From a virus, in the IMG/VR virus record IMGVR_UViG_3300047551_000415, positions 1 through 24,510 of that record: a stretch of DNA of 24,510 nucleotides. One strand, 5' to 3'. Every line of letters begins with the position of its first letter. Position 1 is the stretch's first letter. Positions 7,068 through 18,013 of this stretch are shown here, one piece after another. The notes below the pieces were generated by a model that worked only from the letters and a program-made list of their open reading frames with translations, had not been told where the DNA came from and made no database searches. A program made the position numbers and the translations under genes.

Positions 7068-10000
7068 TTACAACTGGTTATAGATGGGCAGTAGCCGGTC
7101 CTTAATTGTCCGGTCAACGCGCCAGCCATTCGAAAACGCTTCGTCAACGGTCTCGGCTGTTGGGCCAAGAAGCGTGAACACAGGGCTATTGCCAAAGTCA
7201 GAGGCTTGACCGGCCATCATTGGGATCGCCATAGCCCCATGGAAACCAGAGCGGTCGTAGATTTCAGTTACATACTCCGGCCAATCCATTCGGTCGGATC
7301 GGAAGTATTTTGGGCCAGACTCAACGCCAGGTAGCAGCCAAGCTAGACCGTTTTTAGCAAACTCACGAAGCTCAAGCCCAAGCATTGCAAGTGGCATGGT
7401 TGCTACGGCAGTAAGCGCAAAAATGCCTACCGTTGCTCTGATCGGCGTGTTCGGCGATTCCATTAATCTGGCAAGCGCCTCACGCTTGATGCCGCCCAAA
7501 ATAACTTTCTGGTAGGAATAGAAGTACTGCTTCAACTGCCATACCAAGGCCCAATGCGGATCGGACGCCCATATGGGTCGTTCTGCTGCATTCGGACGGA
7601 GGATTGAGGACTCAACAAATCGCTGGAGGCCTTGCTTGACCTTCTGCCCTTCGGGCGTTGTCATGCGCCGCCCGCTCTGTATCCAGGTCAGCACATCTTC
7701 TCTCGTGAGCCCAAGCTCGCGCAGATACCGTTCCGATCTGGGGTTGTTGAACTCGTTGCGTGCATGCTTAGTAATGAACTGCACGCCCATTCCGGCTGCG
7801 AATTCGCGACTGAAGTTCGTAAAAAAGTTCAAGCCGATGACTCTGAAGTACGCGTCCGACATCTTGCGTACTTTCGGGTCCATGTAGTCCTGCTCTGCTT
7901 CAGTGACCCAGGCATTTGCAACGGTCTCGTTGGTCACAATGCCTATGTCACGAGCAAACTGCGCTGCCTCCTGTCGATTCTTGATAGTCGCAGCGAGCTG
8001 CTTGAATCCGTCTGTTATAGACCCAAACTCCTTTGAATTAATGATCGGTCCAGCTAGGTCAGTCAATGACGCAAGCGTTGCAAAAGGCAGAATCGTGATG
8101 AACTGGATGAACTGCCCCCAGCTGTTTAGCTTGCGCCAGAATGGGCTCAGGGGCTTGGACTGATAGCCAAGATAAGTAGCAATAATCTCTTCCGCTACGC
8201 TTCGGTCCTCTTGGTTTAAGCGGGCAAGAGCCGCATCCAACGCGCTATTGCCGTCCACATCCTTGGTATGGCGATCAAACTCGACCCGCTTTACAACATG
8301 TCGTATGTAGTTGATGAAGGCTTCATTAGGCTCCTGCAAGAAGCCAGCTTGCTGCAAACGCTCACGCGGAACGCCTTTGGTCAGCTTAATCGCTTGGACA
8401 ACATCCGACGCGGGGTTCGTGGGGTCTATGTTGATCGGTCGATCATCAAGTACTGCCTGCTGAACTCGGAGCAGCTTGTTCACGGAGGTAGTAGCTACCG
8501 AACGTGATACCCCGTTTGCCACGAGCAGATCTATGAACTCCTCAGCGCGCCCGTAAACCTCCATCAAATTGAGCGCCACAGGGAAATAGTCTGCTTGCCG
8601 ATTGATATCCGTGTTGGACGGCGCGATGTAGTCGTCGTACAAACTGTCGAGAAAAGCGCGAATCTGGCGAGCCTTTCCGGTCAATTGAGCAGTCGGCGTC
8701 GAGGTGGCCGCCTCGCGCATACCGGCTATTACCGCCGGGTCGTCCATAGCGCCGATCTCTCGGGCAAACTTATTTTGAAGCTCGTTGTTCTTTAGCGCCG
8801 CTGCTCGAAGCATGCCAAGACGCCCTTGTGCACCATCCTCTTGAGAACGTACATAGAACATGTTCGCGATTTCGTCGCCAGCGTACATACGAAGCACGCC
8901 ATCCGCCGTACGAACGATCCTCATAAGAGGGCGAATGTTTGGGTTCTTTAGTATCTGATTGAGCTTACCTTTCCAGTGCGCCGCCAACGCCGCGCCACCG
9001 TTCTGAATAGCCATGTCGTTTAGTTCGTAGGAGAACATCTTCTCGGTAAAACCAAGGCCATTTTCATTGACCTGGTTACGACGAGACTCCAGAACTGCAT
9101 CCATAAATGTTTCGAAGTCTTGGCTAACGCCGTCCTTCAGACGGTTCCTAGTTGACTCGCTCAGTGAACGGTATAGCTGCCGCAATCTGGCAACAAAGTC
9201 TTTGAAGAACTTCTCGACCATGTTTTTTGCGTTGCGCTGCTTGTAGCGAGCGTTAGCCCACAGCGCTACCTGGTCAGAGAACCACTCTTCGAAGCCCAAG
9301 TCGAAGCCATACTGATCGCTGAGCTGTTTGTAGGAAGACGAACGCTTATACGCGTTGATTAGACGTTCCCGCAGAGCCTTGTTAGATAGCGCGCGGTCGC
9401 GCTCTTCCTTGTAGAGGCTATGCCCAATCTCATGCGCGACAACGATCGCGTCTTGAAGCTCGTTGCCGCTCTCCTTGTAAATGATGATCTTTCGGCCATT
9501 AGGGCCGGAAATATGCTTACCAACCACCGAGCTGCTTTGCATTGAGTCAAGAGCTCGGATCACAGCTTCGGCCTCAGCTGCGATGGGAAACGACTCTGCA
9601 ATCTCTTGTGGAGTAAGGTTGCGTAAAGAAGTAAACGTAAAGATCTGCGGTTGATTTTTGAATCTAAGGAGCGTCATCAGATCGTTGATGATCTCGCCAA
9701 CCATCCCACGGATTGCTAAATCCACAGGGTTCCTGTTCGAGCCAGCGGCTGGGCGGCGATCTATAGCCGACCGCGGGGTCTCGATGTTCATCCGCGTAGG
9801 AAGTTCGTCACCCTGTAGATTGCTCCCGGGGCCACGAGACTCATTCATGCGGTCTGACTCAGACTGCCCGTCTGCTACTTCAGTAGGACGGTCACCGGCG
9901 AGTGCTTCAGCAGTAAGCTGCCGTTGGCGGTCTTCCTCTGTCTGCTGCTTGAAGCGGGGTGAGCGGAACAGCGTGTTCAACGAAACGCGGTTAGTACCCA

Positions 10001-12536
10001 CAACGGCCGCTGTAACGTTCCCAAGCTGTTTCGGGATGCGTGCCTGGTTCTGAAGGATCGACTGCCCATCAATCTGGACGTCGTAACCTTCGATGGCCAG
10101 ATCGCCAAGGATCTCAAGCAGCCCCGCCCGAGCAGCTGCAGTCGGAGCAATTGATGTGTCCCCGGTTCTGCGGTCCCTACGGAGCATGAAGCCGGTGCCT
10201 TCTCGGCCCTCGATCAAACGCTGGCCAGCAGCGGTCAGATCGACCAGATTAACTGCCGACTTCTTACCGTCCGAACCAACGACCACGACGCGTGAGTTGC
10301 GGGCGTACTTGCTCCGCTTAGCTCGCTGAATAGCCGCCTGAAGGAACGACTGGACGTTGAGGCGGGTCTCGGTGCCGTCCGCGTTGATAGAGCGGAAGAG
10401 GTCGCCGAAGTCGTCGCGAACGAGCTGGAAGCCGCCGTCCGGCATGTCCTCGATCGATACTGCCGAGTCCGGGTTTGAGCGCTGCTCGTTGGCGGCGGCG
10501 TTCAAGAGGCTCTCGTTCATCGCCGCAAAGCGGGGGTCGCTCCAGTTCGTTTCGCCGAACACGCTCTCGAAGTTGGCGCGCGACTTAGCAGTGTTATCGA
10601 ACATGCGGTTTGGGTCAGACTTGCGTCCGTACGCGAAAACAATTGTCCGCTGCCCCTCGACGGCTTGGATGCCTTGGCCGAACTGATCTACTTCAGCCTC
10701 GTTCGGATCAATGTCGTCGATCTGGCCATCGTTGGACTGTTGACCTTGCGCGCGACGTAGCTCTTCCTGCTGATCAGGAGGGAGCGACTCAAACAGCTCA
10801 ATGTTTCGAACTTCAACCGATCGCTTACGGCGCTCCTCAAGTGCTTTCTCGACAGTGGTTTCGCCAATGCGACCACCAGCGGGAGTAAGCTTTCGAGCAG
10901 CTTCATATGCAGCGGCGACATTCTCTCTAGTTGTCACTTCCTCAGAGATAACACGGCCTTCTTTATCGAAAACCTGTACCACCGTGTCGCCGGGGTCGCT
11001 TGCGCTCTTTACTGCGCTATAGCCGAGCGCTATCTGCAGTGACTTGTCGCTGGCGCCAGCGGCAATGACCTCATTAACTATCCGGCGATCTGTCGAGACG
11101 ATAGTCCCGCGACCCGGAATAAAAGCCGCGAAGGCCAAATTGTTGTCGCCGCCTACGGTAACCTGCGTGGGTGCATTAGTTCTGGCTCTAAACTTCGGGG
11201 CATCGCCAGCGACCCAGACGGAATTCTTTCCGCTACTACTATCAACCATTGCCCGAAGTTGAGCTTCGATATCGCTCTCGGGCTCCGGAGTAGTATTACC
11301 GGAAAGAACATCGCCAAACTGCTCGCCATCTATACGCTGGTTGACCCGCTGCTCGCGGGCGGAGTCCAGCATGCGACGGGCCTGGTCATAGATATCAGCG
11401 ACTGCGACTAAGGCTCCGCGCCCACGCTCTTTGACGCTTTCTGGCGCATTTGCAGCAGCATCGAGTGCACCACCTACTGCGCCGCCTGCGGCACCTGGAG
11501 CGGCACCACTAAACCAGCCAGTGAAATACGCCTCAGACAACCGTAGCTTTGCATCTTCAGCAGTGAACAGCGGATCAAGATCAGCACGATTAGCTACGCT
11601 AATACCTTCTTGCGCAAGTTCAGTCGTGGACTCAATCAAACCGCCTTGCGCTGCGCCTTTCCCAACCTGTTTAGCAAAGTTGGCGAATAAACTCCCTTCA
11701 ACGGCGGAGCGCTTGAATGCTTGCTCGCCAAGAAGCTTAAGGAATGCGTACTCGCCGCCGACGCCTATTGCAGCTTGCGGAGCGGCGACCGCTGCGGCCC
11801 TAAGCGCACTTGACTCATCAAGCTGTTGCCCGGAATCCAAACCCTCAGCTAGGTTACTGCCAGCCATTGGCACGTACTCAGCGGCCAATGCTCCACCAAT
11901 CGCGCCGCGCTTAAGCGTATCGCGCATTGAGCCATAGGCTAGCTCGGCAATCTGCTGCTCAGTGGGGTCCGCTACGCCTCTAAACGTACGGTCCACAGAG
12001 TCTTTGATGAGCCGCTTACTTACTTCTCTAGAGGTACTGGATAAGATCCCACGGCCCACCCCCGCCACTAACGCCCCGGTACCCGCAGTCGCAATTGACA
12101 TGGCGGCAGAGGGAACTGCCTGGCCACTCTTGGCAACCTGGGTGAGAAACCCACTTAGTGTGGGTTCATCAATAAATTCCGCCCAGGTTTGAACGCCTTC
12201 CAGCGGGGCTGCGGCAAACTCTTCCCGCAGCCGTGCACTTTCAATTGCGTCAGCAGCGGCTTCTTTGTCGCCGGTAAGTGTGTTGAATAGCGCGCTGAAA
12301 TAATCGACATCGGCGCCAATATTCTCAGCCCCAGCTTGCACCGAGCGTTGAAAAGTCTCTCCAAACCCAGATAGGCCAGTATCTGGCACCGCGTTAGGTG
12401 TCAGACTCTGGTCTAGGATTGTCCGCTGGACATCCTGTCCTGCGTCAGCAGGACCTCGAGCATCAATCAACTCAGCGAAGTTATTCCGCTTCGTTGACCC
12501 TGGGCTAAAGAATGACTGGAACGGGTCTTGGGCCAC
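7068..12536 (-). CDS. Giant internal virion / DNA-ejection protein with metallopeptidase motif
   Basis: This 1,822-residue protein starts at GTG (12536, AGG eight bases upstream). Its place after three Ala/Gln-rich internal proteins and before lysis genes matches T7 gp16, which builds the ejection conduit. Visible parts are: Ala/Gly-rich hydrophobic stretches near residues 138-165 and 335-365; a central alpha/beta region; HEIGH at 1035-1039 with EEWFSDQ at 1083-1089, the layout of a gluzincin zinc peptidase (two His plus a downstream Glu); a long helical C-terminal half; and a hydrophobic segment near 1697-1722. The C-terminal half, with SSILRPNAAERPIWASDPHW, resembles regions seen in other very large phage virion proteins. 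No T7-type transglycosylase motif was recognised. It might cleave host or virion proteins on entry; activity is inference. Confidence 0.8.
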   Translation of the reverse strand: MAQDPFQSFFSPGSTKRNNFAELIDARGPADAGQDVQRTILDQSLTPNAVPDTGLSGFGETFQRSVQAGAENIGADVDYFSALFNTLTGDKEAAADAIESARLREEFAAAPLEGVQTWAEFIDEPTLSGFLTQVAKSGQAVPSAAMSIATAGTGALVAGVGRGILSSTSREVSKRLIKDSVDRTFRGVADPTEQQIAELAYGSMRDTLKRGAIGGALAAEYVPMAGSNLAEGLDSGQQLDESSALRAAAVAAPQAAIGVGGEYAFLKLLGEQAFKRSAVEGSLFANFAKQVGKGAAQGGLIESTTELAQEGISVANRADLDPLFTAEDAKLRLSEAYFTGWFSGAAPGAAGGAVGGALDAAANAPESVKERGRGALVAVADIYDQARRMLDSAREQRVNQRIDGEQFGDVLSGNTTPEPESDIEAQLRAMVDSSSGKNSVWVAGDAPKFRARTNAPTQVTVGGDNNLAFAAFIPGRGTIVSTDRRIVNEVIAAGASDKSLQIALGYSAVKSASDPGDTVVQVFDKEGRVISEEVTTRENVAAAYEAARKLTPAGGRIGETTVEKALEERRKRSVEVRNIELFESLPPDQQEELRRAQGQQSNDGQIDDIDPNEAEVDQFGQGIQAVEGQRTIVFAYGRKSDPNRMFDNTAKSRANFESVFGETNWSDPRFAAMNESLLNAAANEQRSNPDSAVSIEDMPDGGFQLVRDDFGDLFRSINADGTETRLNVQSFLQAAIQRAKRSKYARNSRVVVVGSDGKKSAVNLVDLTAAGQRLIEGREGTGFMLRRDRRTGDTSIAPTAAARAGLLEILGDLAIEGYDVQIDGQSILQNQARIPKQLGNVTAAVVGTNRVSLNTLFRSPRFKQQTEEDRQRQLTAEALAGDRPTEVADGQSESDRMNESRGPGSNLQGDELPTRMNIETPRSAIDRRPAAGSNRNPVDLAIRGMVGEIINDLMTLLRFKNQPQIFTFTSLRNLTPQEIAESFPIAAEAEAVIRALDSMQSSSVVGKHISGPNGRKIIIYKESGNELQDAIVVAHEIGHSLYKEERDRALSNKALRERLINAYKRSSSYKQLSDQYGFDLGFEEWFSDQVALWANARYKQRNAKNMVEKFFKDFVARLRQLYRSLSESTRNRLKDGVSQDFETFMDAVLESRRNQVNENGLGFTEKMFSYELNDMAIQNGGAALAAHWKGKLNQILKNPNIRPLMRIVRTADGVLRMYAGDEIANMFYVRSQEDGAQGRLGMLRAAALKNNELQNKFAREIGAMDDPAVIAGMREAATSTPTAQLTGKARQIRAFLDSLYDDYIAPSNTDINRQADYFPVALNLMEVYGRAEEFIDLLVANGVSRSVATTSVNKLLRVQQAVLDDRPINIDPTNPASDVVQAIKLTKGVPRERLQQAGFLQEPNEAFINYIRHVVKRVEFDRHTKDVDGNSALDAALARLNQEDRSVAEEIIATYLGYQSKPLSPFWRKLNSWGQFIQFITILPFATLASLTDLAGPIINSKEFGSITDGFKQLAATIKNRQEAAQFARDIGIVTNETVANAWVTEAEQDYMDPKVRKMSDAYFRVIGLNFFTNFSREFAAGMGVQFITKHARNEFNNPRSERYLRELGLTREDVLTWIQSGRRMTTPEGQKVKQGLQRFVESSILRPNAAERPIWASDPHWALVWQLKQYFYSYQKVILGGIKREALARLMESPNTPIRATVGIFALTAVATMPLAMLGLELREFAKNGLAWLLPGVESGPKYFRSDRMDWPEYVTEIYDRSGFHGAMAIPMMAGQASDFGNSPVFTLLGPTAETVDEAFSNGWRVDRTIKDRLLPIYNQL

Positions 12537-12545
12537 AGTTGTAAC

Positions 12546-14915
12546 CTATGGTCGGAGGGCCGATCTGTCATACGCAGCTCCGGCAGTCGCCCTTGCTGAT
12601 GTGCTCGGGTTGAAGTTCTGCTTGTTCTGGTTAACGTCAGCCGCCTTGATCAAAATCCGATAAAGGCTGTTGTCAGCTGATTGCACAACAGAAGCCGGAA
12701 TTCCTTCGTCCGCGACCAGCCCGTCATCGCTGAGGTAGAAGAACTTCTGCGGATTACCCTTACTGTCCTTCTGAACTCTAACGCGGGAGAGACTAAAATC
12801 GGTCATGCTGGCAACGTCTCCGGCGTCCGGTCTGAAGAAGCTAAGGACCGTCTCCATAGGCCCACCAATTTCCTCAGCGGCCAAACCAGCCAACGCCAGG
12901 CTGAGCCCCGGATTCATGGACAATAGCAGCGCATTTGCTTCCGCCGGATTCTTGTCCGCCAAAGTGGAGACCCGGTACATCATGTTGGGAGCGACCGTAC
13001 GCAAAAACTTCTTGGACGTCTCCGCGCTCAACATGAAATCGTTTGTCTCCGGATCCACGAACGTGGCCTTTGTCTTGTCAATGAAGGCGTTACCTTCTTT
13101 GGCGAGCTCGTCACGACGTGTGATGCCGTCTTTTTCCAGCCCACGCAAGAACTCGGACCGTCGTTGCGTCAGCTCCCCAAAACGAATCTGGTTCGCTTCC
13201 CTCGAGGTGATGGCGTTCATCCTGCTCGTTTGAGCATTGAACGCATTTATGCGGTTCGTCTCTCGACTAATATCCTGCGCATCGGACTCCTGACGGGTCA
13301 AACTTACCGAACCGGCGGGATTATCAAAGATGTTTGATATTTCTTGCGCTTTAGCAGCTCGAATTGTCTGGTCTTTCTCGACAGCAAGAATCACAGCGCG
13401 AGCAAGAGCGCGATCGCGATCATTCAAACGCGCGAGCTGTCTGATGTTAGTAATGCCCTTGCTCTGTAGGTCGCGCTGAACTGCAGCCGCAGTATCCGGG
13501 GTAACCTGAATCTCGCCGTTAGCAATCGCACGGTCGACGTCAGTCGTCGGACGTCCGTCGACCTGGGCAGCAACAGCACTGACGCCACCAGCAGGCGGCG
13601 CTTGATTGCCAGAAGCAGGCGCCTCTCCTCGAATGCGAGCTAGACGCTCGTCTCTGCTGCGTTGGGCGGTGTTTGCCGCGAGATCGCGTGACCGAGCAGC
13701 GGCTTCTTTCTCGACGTCGGCCTCAACCTTGGCTCTACGTCTACGGATATCAGCGTCCGCATAGCCACGGTTCAGCATCACGTCTTTAAGGTAGGCCGCG
13801 GTGTTTTCATCGCCGTTGCGGACAGCAATGTCGTAGACCCCAGCAACTTCCTCGTTAGAAAATGCCTTCGGATCTTTGAGAAGTGCGACGGTTTCGTTCG
13901 TTCCTGTATCACCCGCACCAACGATGTTCTTTGCACGGTTGCGAGTTATGCCTTCGAGCTCCGGAGCGAGGCGCTTGTACATGCCGTCGAGCTTCGGATC
14001 CACGGTAGGTGCTGCAGCGACGGGAGCGTCAGCTGCAGGAGCAGGCGCTGCTGGAGCCGCAGCGGCAGGCTGGCCAGAAGTAGACAAAGTGCCGCTTCGA
14101 TTAGCCCGGCGGCGACCAACAGGCCGCCCACTGGCTTCGTAGTCAGCTTCAACTTGATCCAAAAGTCTGTCTGTCGCCTGTGCGTCTCCTGACGCCGCGC
14201 CAAACGCATTTACAAGCGCGCGACGAGCGCCTGGGTCAGCAGTAGCTGCTAACACCTCATTGAGGCGGCCTACGCGATCAAACTCTTCGTTACGAGTGGC
14301 GTCTGCGTCGACCTGATTCTCATAAGCACGGAATACAGTTGGGTTGATGACGTCATTGTTTGCGAGGACTTTTGTCTTGAAATAGATGTTAGAGATGCCA
14401 GCAAGTCGGTCTGGCGTAAAATTCATTACCGTGGAGTCTGGGTTACTGGACCCATCAACGGTAACCGCTCCTTTAGAGCCATCTTTATTTCTGACTGTGA
14501 CTGCATAGTTCCCATCAGGCAGCACCTGAAGCGATTCCGCTACAGAGCCCGCCGGGAGTTCTCCGCTTTTATTTGCGATGTTCAAGGCGAGCTGAGTAGC
14601 AACCTGGTCGCCTTTACTAATGCCATCAGCAAGGCGCGCCGTATCAATGCCCATCCCGTCACGGGTCAGATAGCCAGAAGCGGCTGTCGCCTGAATGAAC
14701 GCACCGTTTTCTCTTCTAGTCCGCGTGTTTTCTGCTTCAGCGTTGAGGTTTGCCTGTTGCGCTTCTTGGGTGCTTACCTGGCGATCAAGAATACCTAGCC
14801 GACGCTCTTCCTGCGCCAACTGCCGCTGGGCGAGCTGATTACGGGAACGCTGGGCGCTCATCTGCTGGACCCCTTGGATCCCTGCAAGGATTGCGCTTCC
14901 GACATCTTGTGCCAT
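12546..14915 (-). CDS. Internal virion protein, 789 residues (T7 gp15-like role)
   Basis: This large, Ala/Arg/Asp-rich, mostly helical protein has no signal or membrane segment. The N-terminal 70 residues are a Gln/Arg-rich coiled coil (SQRSRNQLAQRQLAQEERR). A Pro/Ala linker sits near residues 275-302. The C-terminal half includes further coiled coil and a region around MYRVSTLADKNPAEANALLL. The ATG at 14915 has AGAGG at a good distance. By position, between two small internal proteins and the giant protein, it matches the middle ejection protein of the T7 set (gp14, gp15, gp16). There is no direct sequence evidence of homology that I can confirm by eye; role is inferred from order, size and composition. 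Confidence 0.65.
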   Translation of the reverse strand: MAQDVGSAILAGIQGVQQMSAQRSRNQLAQRQLAQEERRLGILDRQVSTQEAQQANLNAEAENTRTRRENGAFIQATAASGYLTRDGMGIDTARLADGISKGDQVATQLALNIANKSGELPAGSVAESLQVLPDGNYAVTVRNKDGSKGAVTVDGSSNPDSTVMNFTPDRLAGISNIYFKTKVLANNDVINPTVFRAYENQVDADATRNEEFDRVGRLNEVLAATADPGARRALVNAFGAASGDAQATDRLLDQVEADYEASGRPVGRRRANRSGTLSTSGQPAAAAPAAPAPAADAPVAAAPTVDPKLDGMYKRLAPELEGITRNRAKNIVGAGDTGTNETVALLKDPKAFSNEEVAGVYDIAVRNGDENTAAYLKDVMLNRGYADADIRRRRAKVEADVEKEAAARSRDLAANTAQRSRDERLARIRGEAPASGNQAPPAGGVSAVAAQVDGRPTTDVDRAIANGEIQVTPDTAAAVQRDLQSKGITNIRQLARLNDRDRALARAVILAVEKDQTIRAAKAQEISNIFDNPAGSVSLTRQESDAQDISRETNRINAFNAQTSRMNAITSREANQIRFGELTQRRSEFLRGLEKDGITRRDELAKEGNAFIDKTKATFVDPETNDFMLSAETSKKFLRTVAPNMMYRVSTLADKNPAEANALLLSMNPGLSLALAGLAAEEIGGPMETVLSFFRPDAGDVASMTDFSLSRVRVQKDSKGNPQKFFYLSDDGLVADEGIPASVVQSADNSLYRILIKAADVNQNKQNFNPSTSARATAGAAYDRSALRP

Positions 14916-14924
14916 GGTTAACCT

Positions 14925-15563
14925 CTAAATCGCAAAGGCCAAGATGGCCATCGAAGCAAGTGAACCGATAGTGCTGTACGTCTGCGCCTTCTGAGCAGCT
15001 TTAGCCTGGGTGTATTGATTGTTTCGCGCTGTTGCATCAGCGGCTGCTTGACCAAGCTGCTGCTGAGAGGAGCGATTTACGCCTTGACCGATGTTGATTA
15101 GATCAGACAGGAGTTTGGTGTTTGCTTCTCGCTGAGCGATCTTTGCATCATTCACGGCCTGAACGCCGCCAAGTGTGTTAGCTCGTTGGAGGCGGAGTTC
15201 CTGTTGCTGACGCATCTCTGGTGAAAGAGCCACGCCATAACGCTGCGCGTTACGCTCAGCAACTCCCTTCGACAGAGTGGATGCAAGCCCCACGTCCTTT
15301 CTGGCCGTGTCAATCAGTGTTCTGTCGGTCAGCGCTTTGTTGATTAGCTGTTCTTCGAAGGGGCGATAGTTGGCGACATAGTCCAAGTACTCTTGCCTCG
15401 TCAGCTCAGCAAATGCTTTCTCAGGATCACGAACACTTGTTAGGCCCGCCGAATAGGCGGTCGTACCAGTAGTTCCGTAAGTTGCCCCAGGATAGCCGCC
15501 ACCGAGCAAAGAGCCCCCGCGCATATAGCTATCCGGCATCACTGCTGTCGTCATCGTTTCCAT
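14925..15563 (-). CDS. Small internal virion protein, 212 residues
   Basis: The protein has a Gly/Tyr/Thr-rich N-terminus (GGGYPGATYGTTGTTAYSAG), then a helical Gln/Ala-rich body (QQLGQAAADATARNNQYTQA) and a hydrophobic C-terminus (GSLASMAILAFAI, the final 13 residues). A hydrophobic end on a small Ala/Gln-rich protein is reminiscent of T7 gp14, which inserts into the outer membrane at entry. The ATG at 15563 is used; an alternative ATG three codons in has GGAA close upstream. It lies 6 bases downstream of a similar gene, indicating one transcript. Function inferred from context. Confidence 0.62.
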   Translation of the reverse strand: METMTTAVMPDSYMRGGSLLGGGYPGATYGTTGTTAYSAGLTSVRDPEKAFAELTRQEYLDYVANYRPFEEQLINKALTDRTLIDTARKDVGLASTLSKGVAERNAQRYGVALSPEMRQQQELRLQRANTLGGVQAVNDAKIAQREANTKLLSDLINIGQGVNRSSQQQLGQAAADATARNNQYTQAKAAQKAQTYSTIGSLASMAILAFAI

Positions 15564-15569
15564 TGCTTT

Positions 15570-16223
15570 TTACCCGAAGAAGCTGGAGTACCCAAGGCGA
15601 TTTCTTACACCTTTGACCGGGGCGTATATCTCCTGTCCGCTCTTATTCATAACGCCAGTGCCGCCAACAGGCCGGAAAAAGCTGCCCTTGATCTCGTTTC
15701 CGTCGGCATCCACGCCCTTGGTTTTCATATTGTCGATGCCCTGAGCTGCGAAGGTTGTAGCAACCTGTGCTGCAGCAGCGAACTTAGCGGCTGCGACATC
15801 TTGTTTTGCTTGCGCCTTAGCAAGCGCTTCTGATGTCCCCAAGCGGCTCGCTATGCTCATCCCGCTTTGGGCGTCTGCTACTTGCCCACGAGCAGTTCCG
15901 AGCACGTTAGTTTGCTGGGTGTTCTGAACATCTTTAGCTGCGGTGTTCGCAACACCCATCTGCCCACTGACAGCCTGCGCAAGATCACCAGTCGCGTCAG
16001 AACGATTTATGGCTGTATAGCTGGTAGGAGAAAGCGCTTGCATCGTATCGGCATTGGCGCGCCCCCTCAGCCCAGACGCGATATCCTCGGTCAACGATTT
16101 ATCGCGCATATTCTGCAGAAGCGGGTCGTACTTCTGTTTGAAGTAGGCGTACTCAGCCGCCCCTACTTCAGCATTCGCTTTTTCAGCGTCGCTCGCCTCG
16201 GCCTTCTTTGCCTTGCTACCCAT
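15570..16223 (-). CDS. Small internal virion protein, 217 residues
   Basis: The protein has a charged N-terminus (MGSKAKKAEASDAEKANAEV), a long Ala/Gln-rich helical body (AKAQAKQDVAAAKFAAAAQV) and a Gly-rich, aromatic C-terminus ending LGYSSFFG. Its ATG directly abuts the TAG of the gp13-like gene (TAGATG), with GAGGG eight bases upstream. The composition and size match the internal or injection proteins of podoviruses, and it heads the internal-protein block of this window. No motif identifies a specific biochemical role. It could also be a tail-hub component. Confidence 0.6.
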   Translation of the reverse strand: MGSKAKKAEASDAEKANAEVGAAEYAYFKQKYDPLLQNMRDKSLTEDIASGLRGRANADTMQALSPTSYTAINRSDATGDLAQAVSGQMGVANTAAKDVQNTQQTNVLGTARGQVADAQSGMSIASRLGTSEALAKAQAKQDVAAAKFAAAAQVATTFAAQGIDNMKTKGVDADGNEIKGSFFRPVGGTGVMNKSGQEIYAPVKGVRNRLGYSSFFG

Positions 16224-16631
16224 CTATAACGCCCTCGTATATACGACGGTGTCTATCGTCCACCCATGACTTTCTAAGTGCTGCATCAGCCCGAGGTGCG
16301 GAGACCGGGTCTCCAAGTAGCTGTAGCCTGCCTCTGTTGCGACGCGCTCAAAAAATGTCTGGTACTTAGACACCAAGCTGTTACCCCGATCCTTAGCCCA
16401 TGCGAGCCAAAGAAACATCGTCTTCCGATCCGTGAAGGGATCGATCTCCGTGGTGGAGATAACGAACCCCTCACTCGTCGTCCACAGTACAGCCTGCTTG
16501 TTTATGCAGGCTGCGTAGACGTCCTCTGGCCGGTAGGTGAAGGTCCTCGCACTGCGAAGAATCTCCTCAACCCCGCGCCTTACCCAATCCCACTCCCTGC
16601 GGATATCAGAGACGACCGGCTCAACCGCCGT
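16224..16631 (-). CDS. T7 gp13-like / GNAT-like small virion protein with apparent ACG start
   Basis: The reading frame ends at TAG 16224-16226 and can be read as a coherent protein beginning [ACG]AVEPVVSDIRREWDWVRR, then EDVYAACINKQAVLWTTSEG, FVISTTEIDPFTDRKTMFLW, and ending HGWTIDTVVYTRAL (135 residues). This pattern is familiar from small gp13-like, acetyltransferase-fold virion proteins. No ATG, GTG or TTG lies between the ATG at 16418 and the upstream in-frame stop near 16747. Starting at 16418 would remove over half the conserved fold. GGAGAAAGG (16639-16647) lies exactly seven bases upstream of ACG (16629-16631), ideal for initiation. I therefore call ACG as the start, either real or an ATG-to-ACG variant/error. 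The gene overlaps the previous frame by 52 bases. Confidence 0.68.
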   Translation of the reverse strand, partial: TAVEPVVSDIRREWDWVRRGVEEILRSARTFTYRPEDVYAACINKQAVLWTTSEGFVISTTEIDPFTDRKTMFLWLAWAKDRGNSLVSKYQTFFERVATEAGYSYLETRSPHLGLMQHLESHGWTIDTVVYTRAL

Positions 16632-17305
16632 TGCCGTACCTTTCTCCGTCGCGAATATGGTGAATGGATTCCGCCATACGACACCTTCCTGGCGATGCCG
16701 ACGTCCGCGTGACGAGCACGCCGATCGGCGACTGCGATGCCTTCGTTAAACAATGACCCGTAAACCTGTGCACCCGAGTAGTCAGTCCATTCCTTACTCG
16801 GCAAACGCAACAAACGAAACAACGCGCCGTTGACGATAGTGTCGCGGTAGTCGGACATCAGCTCGTCGTCAGCGGAAAGAGACGTCTGCGTCGGCTTAAG
16901 CTGCACGCGCAGAATGGTGCTAGACACCTTCGTTGCGTTAGGAACTGGAACCAGCCAGAACAAGGACTGACTGGCTTTTACGAAGTACTCCGGCGTTCCA
17001 CGATTCGCGGCATCGCGCCAGCTGGGCTTTCGCTGCTCCAGTAGGTTCGTGCTGATCGGCTCGAGGTCTTTGCCATCGTGCACCACCCACATAATCTTGT
17101 GGACCACAGTGTCGGTCGGTGGCTCGAGGTCATACTCAAACGCGCCTACGCGTGTGGTCACTGGGTCGAGCTCAGCCTGGAGGACAGGTGCTTTCTCGCA
17201 CAGCTCGATAGCCGCTGATCGAAGATAGTTTTCGATCAACGTGTCAGGGCATCCCGGTACCATTGGGATGACCTCAGGCAACAGCGACTCGTAAAGAGTT
17301 GCCAT
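16580..17305 (-). CDS. Head-tail adaptor / tail tubular-like protein
   Basis: This 241-residue protein begins MATLYESLLPEVIPMVPGCP and contains VLRVQLKPTQTS, SDYRDTIVNGALFRLLRLP and ARKVSYGGIHS, features of the small ring proteins (tail tubular gp11-like or related adaptors) that sit under the portal. The ATG lies in a GGGGTAATAGGCCATG context just after the previous stop. The last roughly 25 residues (RRRKVRQRRLSRSS and on) are unusually basic and read through the start of the next gene in another frame. They look like out-of-frame extension rather than conserved protein, so a lost stop or indel near the end is possible. Role assigned from order and pattern. Confidence 0.66.
   Translation of the reverse strand: MATLYESLLPEVIPMVPGCPDTLIENYLRSAAIELCEKAPVLQAELDPVTTRVGAFEYDLEPPTDTVVHKIMWVVHDGKDLEPISTNLLEQRKPSWRDAANRGTPEYFVKASQSLFWLVPVPNATKVSSTILRVQLKPTQTSLSADDELMSDYRDTIVNGALFRLLRLPSKEWTDYSGAQVYGSLFNEGIAVADRRARHADVGIARKVSYGGIHSPYSRRRKVRQRRLSRSSLISAGSGIG
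16639..16647 (-). promoter_or_regulatory. Shine-Dalgarno that decides the ACG start
   Basis: GGAGAAAGG (minus strand) lies inside the upstream adaptor frame. It is followed after TACGGCA by ACG GCG GTT GAG. It has no ATG, GTG or TTG within range, so its natural partner is the ACG at 16629-16631. Confidence 0.6.
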
Positions 17306-17320
17306 GGCCTATTACCCCGC
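17303..17320 (-). repeat. Gene-junction repeat, copy B
   Basis: GCGGGGTAATAGGCCATG covers the stop of the 233-residue adaptor gene and the ATG of the next gene. It matches 6894-6912 except for one missing base. The TAGGCCATG core also appears at 18011-18019. Confidence 0.6.
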
Positions 17321-18013
17321 TGCCACTGCGATCGGGCGCTTGCTGTCGTAGTTTGGAGTCGTCATAGCGTCGACCTGGCCCTTGCCAGTGATAGACGCAG
17401 TGAAGAGCTGGTAGTGCGACGCGGCGCGCTGCTGATTACCGGCGTATTCGGCGTCCTTCATATAGGCCATGTACAGCACGTAGTTCATGACTGCGTTGGC
17501 GTAGATATCAGGAATGTCGAGGTTGCCATTCTGGGCAACCGTCGTCGGGTTCGCGGAGTAGATGATCTCTGCGAACGCAGTATTGGCAGTGGAAATGCCA
17601 GGATAGACGTAGAAGTTCCGGGGGTTCTGCTCGTCGTAAATGTAATGCTTAACAACAGTCCCGTGAGCAGCGTCACCGGTAACCGTAGGGTTGTGCCAGT
17701 CAGGGGTCTGCGCATCCAAAATATCGCGCTGGACGATACGGACCGCTCGACGGCCGAGCCCGTTGCTTGCAGCGGACATGTTCCGGACCACGCGCAGGAG
17801 TGCGTTCCCATCATTAGGGATTTCCTGTTTGGTCCCAGCAGCAAGTGTGATGGTCGTGTTCTTAGCGGAAGCATCCGGCTTCAGCAGAGCAATCTCACGC
17901 TGAGCGTCATTCACCCAAAGAACGAGTTCATCAACAACAGGCCAACGAACGCCAGTAGTGTCCTGGAGTGTCTTTTGGACCCGGTCGATTACGCTTTGTA
18001 CTGTAACGGCCAT
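17312..18013 (-). CDS. Phage adaptor protein (DUF6682-like)
   Basis: This 233-residue protein starts MAVTVQSVIDRVQKTLQDTT and includes WVNDAQREIALLKPDAS and LDIPDIYANAVMNYVLYMAY. The pattern, an N-terminal helical pair, a beta-rich middle (NFYVYPGI) and a C-terminal helical bundle ending near residue 210, matches a phage adaptor family that I recall as DUF6682. It would bind the portal after packaging and form the first connector ring. The ATG at 18013 is preceded by GAGG at a six-base spacing, in TAGGCCATG context. It is the second gene downstream of the capsid terminator, so its expression needs read-through or another promoter. Confidence 0.75.
   Translation of the reverse strand: MAVTVQSVIDRVQKTLQDTTGVRWPVVDELVLWVNDAQREIALLKPDASAKNTTITLAAGTKQEIPNDGNALLRVVRNMSAASNGLGRRAVRIVQRDILDAQTPDWHNPTVTGDAAHGTVVKHYIYDEQNPRNFYVYPGISTANTAFAEIIYSANPTTVAQNGNLDIPDIYANAVMNYVLYMAYMKDAEYAGNQQRAASHYQLFTASITGKGQVDAMTTPNYDSKRPIAVAAG

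Follow-up and report, generated by a model that had tools for sequence, protein, structure and literature searches.

Can a phage gene begin at ACG, or does a frame that lacks a conventional start codon betray something else in the record? The question is raised by a 135-codon frame (16631..16227, minus strand, with the end of its stop codon at 16224) in the window, i.e., the whole stretch of 24,510 nucleotides of viral DNA analysed here, in which the genes of this region are carried on the minus strand. A first-pass annotation had proposed that the frame is initiated at an ACG codon (16629..16631, minus strand) behind a textbook Shine-Dalgarno sequence, with low or regulated expression. The answer reached here is a different one: in all probability (about 95%, judged from sequence comparison), the apparent ACG start results from the absence of two bases from the record inside an overlap of two genes, the overlap itself being ordinary.

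The frame and the proposed ACG start

As read from the sequence, the frame is open far above 16418, and in the ORF reading of the minus strand ATG 16418 is indeed, as had been claimed, its first ATG, GTG or TTG. The string GGAGAAAGG occupies positions 16647-16639 and is followed by TACGGCA and then, from 16631, by ACG-GCG-GTT-GAG, which confirms the reported spacing of seven bases. The portion above 16418 had been taken for genuine coding sequence, and this is borne out by a match to the phrog_610 profile (E 4.5e-7) and by 41 IMG/VR loci. A start at Met 16418 is ruled out: homologues were aligned and do not begin there, and the N-terminal half of the protein is present in the relatives.

The interpretation of the ACG codon as a start fares less well. 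In the relatives the same triplet is internal codon 17, encoding Thr or Ala: it reads ACG in the L002, L003 and L005 groups and GCG in L004 and L011-L015, and is thus not conserved as a start in homologues. The same finding disposes of the proposal that a single base change had converted an ATG at 16629-16631 into ACG. Furthermore, a Shine-Dalgarno tetramer core is found 5-16 nt upstream of 48 of the 535 ACG triplets (9%) on the same strand of the window. Because so many ACG triplets are similarly placed, and because the motif in question exists only through the two-base loss described below, its presence before the ACG codon constitutes weak evidence.

A conserved ATG within the preceding gene

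The gene upstream of the frame (16580..17305, minus strand) encodes an SU10-type head-tail adaptor, as indicated by matches to PF24175 (2.7e-12; 48 bits against a cut-off of 27, which passes the Pfam threshold) and phrog_437 (9.6e-33). It is preceded on the same strand by a consecutive gene at 17312-18013 that also matches PF24175, the two forming an apparent tandem pair of adaptor paralogues. Elsewhere in the window, a gene at 7068-12536 (minus strand) encodes an 1822-residue virion protein with matches to phrog_30152 and phrog_6958 (head and packaging); it is possibly an ejected internal protein.

In the two nearest relatives (L002 and L003, from IMG/VR contigs L127 and L128), the downstream gene starts at an ATG located 16 codons above the proposed ACG, overlapping the end of the adaptor gene and lying behind AGGAAGG. 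Its product, MAESIHHTRDGETGTA-TAVEPVVSD..., comprises 151 residues in total in both contigs. The same ATG, which is the start in other close relatives as well, is still present in the window at 16675..16677 (minus strand). The Shine-Dalgarno sequence AGGAAGG of the phrog_610 gene, read directly at 16684..16690 (minus strand), precedes it by 6 nt and lies within the adaptor gene. A usable canonical start is thus available upstream, now out of frame with the ACG codon, and initiation at ACG is left unsupported. In close relatives the downstream ATG stands 59 nt before the end of the adaptor gene (an overlap of ~60 nt), with its Shine-Dalgarno sequence within adaptor codons.

The ATG at 16677-16675 overlaps the conserved Tyr-Gly-Gly codons of the adaptor (TAT GGC GGA). 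Among the 37 distinct relative junctions, 29 have TAT as the Tyr codon and thereby form the ATG; the other 8 have TAC, each with another in-frame ATG fourteen codons later; an ATG in the downstream frame is present in 37/37. AGG followed by AAG, AAA or AGG is likewise found in all 37 distinct junctions, the later-starting ones included. Because later-starting relatives retain AGG AAG as well, the Shine-Dalgarno sequence lends support but does not decide the matter. The conservation of ATG 16677 in close relatives makes it the likely true start of the downstream gene.

A two-base loss inside the gene overlap

At 16641..16642 (minus strand), the window reads GGAGAAAGG where the relatives read GGAGAAACAGG, a net deletion of 2 nt. 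Across the wider junction, GGAGAAACAGGTACGG in the relatives stands against GGAGAAAGGTACGG in the window, which is two bases short next to 16641. Relative to near-identical relatives this is a single net indel of a length not divisible by three; both genes agree with the relatives on either side of the site, and the mismatch is confined to its surroundings. The first-pass annotation had noted that the adaptor reads through the site in another frame with a basic tail, and had remarked in passing that a nearby indel was possible. The tail is seen, with its end at 16580, and the remark proved correct. Up to residue 221 the window's adaptor is as in the relatives; residues 222-241 are read in a shifted frame. 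Of the complete adaptor relatives listed, 78 in all, each ends at 225-229 aa and none carries the tail of the window; their C-termini are of the RRNRYG.GG or SRKKYG type, the close group ending in RRNRYGNGG, RRNRYGSGG or similar. The ATG frame of the record encodes an 18-residue peptide, MAESIHHIRDGERYGNGG (16621..16677, minus strand), and ends at the stop used by the adaptor in the relatives. The start-less downstream frame and the odd basic tail of the adaptor thus both arise because of one net two-base loss next to 16641.

The observed arrangement is best explained as follows. The genes for the SU10-like adaptor and the phrog_610/GNAT-like protein, both ordinary genes of a phage structural region, overlap, with the downstream start, ATG 16677 behind AGGAAGG, placed in the last codons of the adaptor. 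Loss of two bases from this overlap, next to 16641, disturbs the reading frames of the two genes simultaneously. The upstream ATG is hidden from the downstream frame, which then seems start-less, and the adaptor acquires a spurious basic tail. By joining GGAGAAA to GG, the loss also creates a Shine-Dalgarno-like string before an internal ACG codon.

The downstream protein

The rest of the downstream gene (16224..16631, minus strand; 135 codons plus the stop) belongs to the phrog_610 family, a profile that is also matched by 27 of 28 aligned relatives, and its product is predicted to adopt a GNAT-like acetyltransferase fold. The AlphaFold model has a mean pLDDT of 81.5, with residues 1-17 under 50 and the folded domain beginning at about residue 22. 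Foldseek places the model closest to GNAT acetyltransferases of the PDB (TM about 0.6, E about 1e-5) and also matches it to phage GNAT proteins, which points to a GNAT-like fold at the level of a predicted structure. The variable N-terminus would be the part encoded in the adaptor overlap, as expected where one frame constrains the other. No Pfam family is matched at a meaningful score by the window's frame, and the T7 gp13 family is absent from the matches of the 28 relatives as well. The label 'gp13-like' given earlier to the frame is left without sequence support, and identity with T7 gp13 is rejected on these grounds.

Comparison with relatives

The window is 97.5% identical to L127 over 17,561 bp, and the 2-nt loss is the only net indel in these 17.56 kb; two 2-nt gaps near 17147-17152 offset one another. 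The 135 downstream residues are 100% identical (135/135) to those of the nearest relatives, L002/L003. Compared with L127, three codons of the downstream frame differ, all of them synonymously. Of the 35 codons that differ within adaptor codons 1-221, 4 alter the residue, whereas in codons 222-228 all seven differ. Such a pattern is consistent with both frames having been under selection up to a very recent time, with the reservation that the three differences of the downstream frame are a small number.

The deletion is unique in the collections searched. It occurs in none of the 37 distinct relative junctions, and two IMG/VR pattern scans, even with ambiguity codes, retrieved the deleted junction from no other contig, although the IMG/VR searches may leave out records very near the window, so that other deleted copies could exist unseen. 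The intact junction was found by IMG/VR pattern scan in 9 contigs. The bacterial genome contigs searched hold no copy of the deleted junction, and among GenBank phage genomes there is no match to the 135-residue frame. A scan for promoters and terminators yielded nothing above chance. An origin of the deletion at a haplotype junction of a chimeric assembly is rejected, as few differences from L127 occur to either side of 16641 and no breakpoint is visible there.

Differences from L127 are unevenly distributed elsewhere. At 16946-17165, in the adaptor gene, they are far denser than in the flanks and mostly synonymous, a pattern suggestive of a recombined stretch; another stretch of this kind is seen near 13100-14100. 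From about 16230 upwards L128 hardly differs from the window, but it has diverged strongly below that point (14900-16230). Judging from the sequence, the two genes that follow the phrog_610 gene look like an exchanged module.

Error, mutation or initiation at ACG

Two origins come into consideration for the missing bases: a mistake made in sequencing or assembly, or a mutation that arose recently in the sampled phage and was probably harmful to it. Where a 2-nt loss disrupts two conserved genes that overlap, and does so in a single metagenome contig, the simplest explanation is an error, with the genes of the phage itself intact, and this is considered the probable origin. In support of this assumption, the difference is a single-copy one that disrupts two genes otherwise under purifying selection, it is found in no other IMG/VR contig, and the long genes in the rest of the window have open frames. 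However, the lack of any other net indel in 17.56 kb implies good contig quality, and the site lies outside any homopolymer, the setting in which indel errors would be commonest. The otherwise indel-free alignment to L127 speaks instead for a real and recent deletion, by which the phrog_610 protein would be cut to 18 residues and the last 7 adaptor residues replaced by 20 others, a change either tolerated or residing in defective genomes. Such a mutation is conceivable, given that the adaptor is altered solely in its last residues and that the phage might do without the downstream protein, but the RRNRYG end of the adaptor is conserved across the close group and no second example was found; this origin is held to be possible, if somewhat doubtful. 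The weights attached to error, to real mutation and to a natural ACG start are judgements rather than computed values.

Initiation at ACG 16631, possibly as a rescue after a real deletion and with low expression, is very improbable. The placement of GGAGAAAGG is good, and a protein made from ACG would keep the whole folded domain of the model, in which residues 1-17 have pLDDT values under 50. There is also a precedent for a non-natural start: lambda cI carrying a frameshift is reported to function from ACA in E. coli (PMC6397469). On the other hand, no relative uses this codon as a start, an intact ATG with its Shine-Dalgarno sequence lies 46 nt upstream, and the drop in yield from AUG to ACA is cited as roughly 1200- to 5000-fold (PMC6397469). 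A rescue of this kind would, moreover, leave the end of the adaptor broken. The likeness to lambda cI consists in an early frameshift followed by an in-frame Thr codon at a plausible distance from a Shine-Dalgarno-like string. Whereas the rescue of lambda cI was demonstrated experimentally in E. coli, one at the present locus would be hypothetical, and the missing bases may themselves be an artefact of the record. By analogy, a weak non-AUG rescue would be possible in principle, but a reading in which the deletion is both real and fixed and the frame-shifted overlapping gene is naturally rescued at ACG 16631, with little GNAT-like protein made, is more improbable still. Programmed frameshifting, which would link the ATG frame to the downstream frame, has in its favour a GAA-AGG-T sequence at the junction, AGG being a rare codon in many bacteria. 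Yet the protein is encoded in one uninterrupted frame in the relatives, so that no conserved recoding site exists, and this most improbable of the explanations is rejected.

Relation to known systems and meaning

The preferred reading, a two-base loss from the record inside a gene overlap, places the locus among overlapping phage genes whose start lies inside the 3′ end of the previous gene, as exemplified by the relatives, where the downstream ATG and its Shine-Dalgarno sequence are found within adaptor codons. Nothing is unusual in the relatives; only in the record of the window are both frames broken by the 2-nt loss. The downstream gene likewise resembles small phrog_610/GNAT-like proteins encoded near phage head-tail genes, given that 27 of the 28 relatives match phrog_610 and the model matches GNAT, and differs in that the window's frame has no meaningful Pfam family, T7 gp13 included. 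The locus gives no pointer to unusual translation. Rather, its lesson is practical: a frame without a start, preceded by a gene with an odd tail, marks an indel in a gene overlap, and comparison with near-identical relatives can settle the matter. For the phages themselves, the comparison indicates that a phrog_610 gene with a predicted GNAT-like fold adjoins and overlaps the head-tail adaptor gene in a group of environmental phages.
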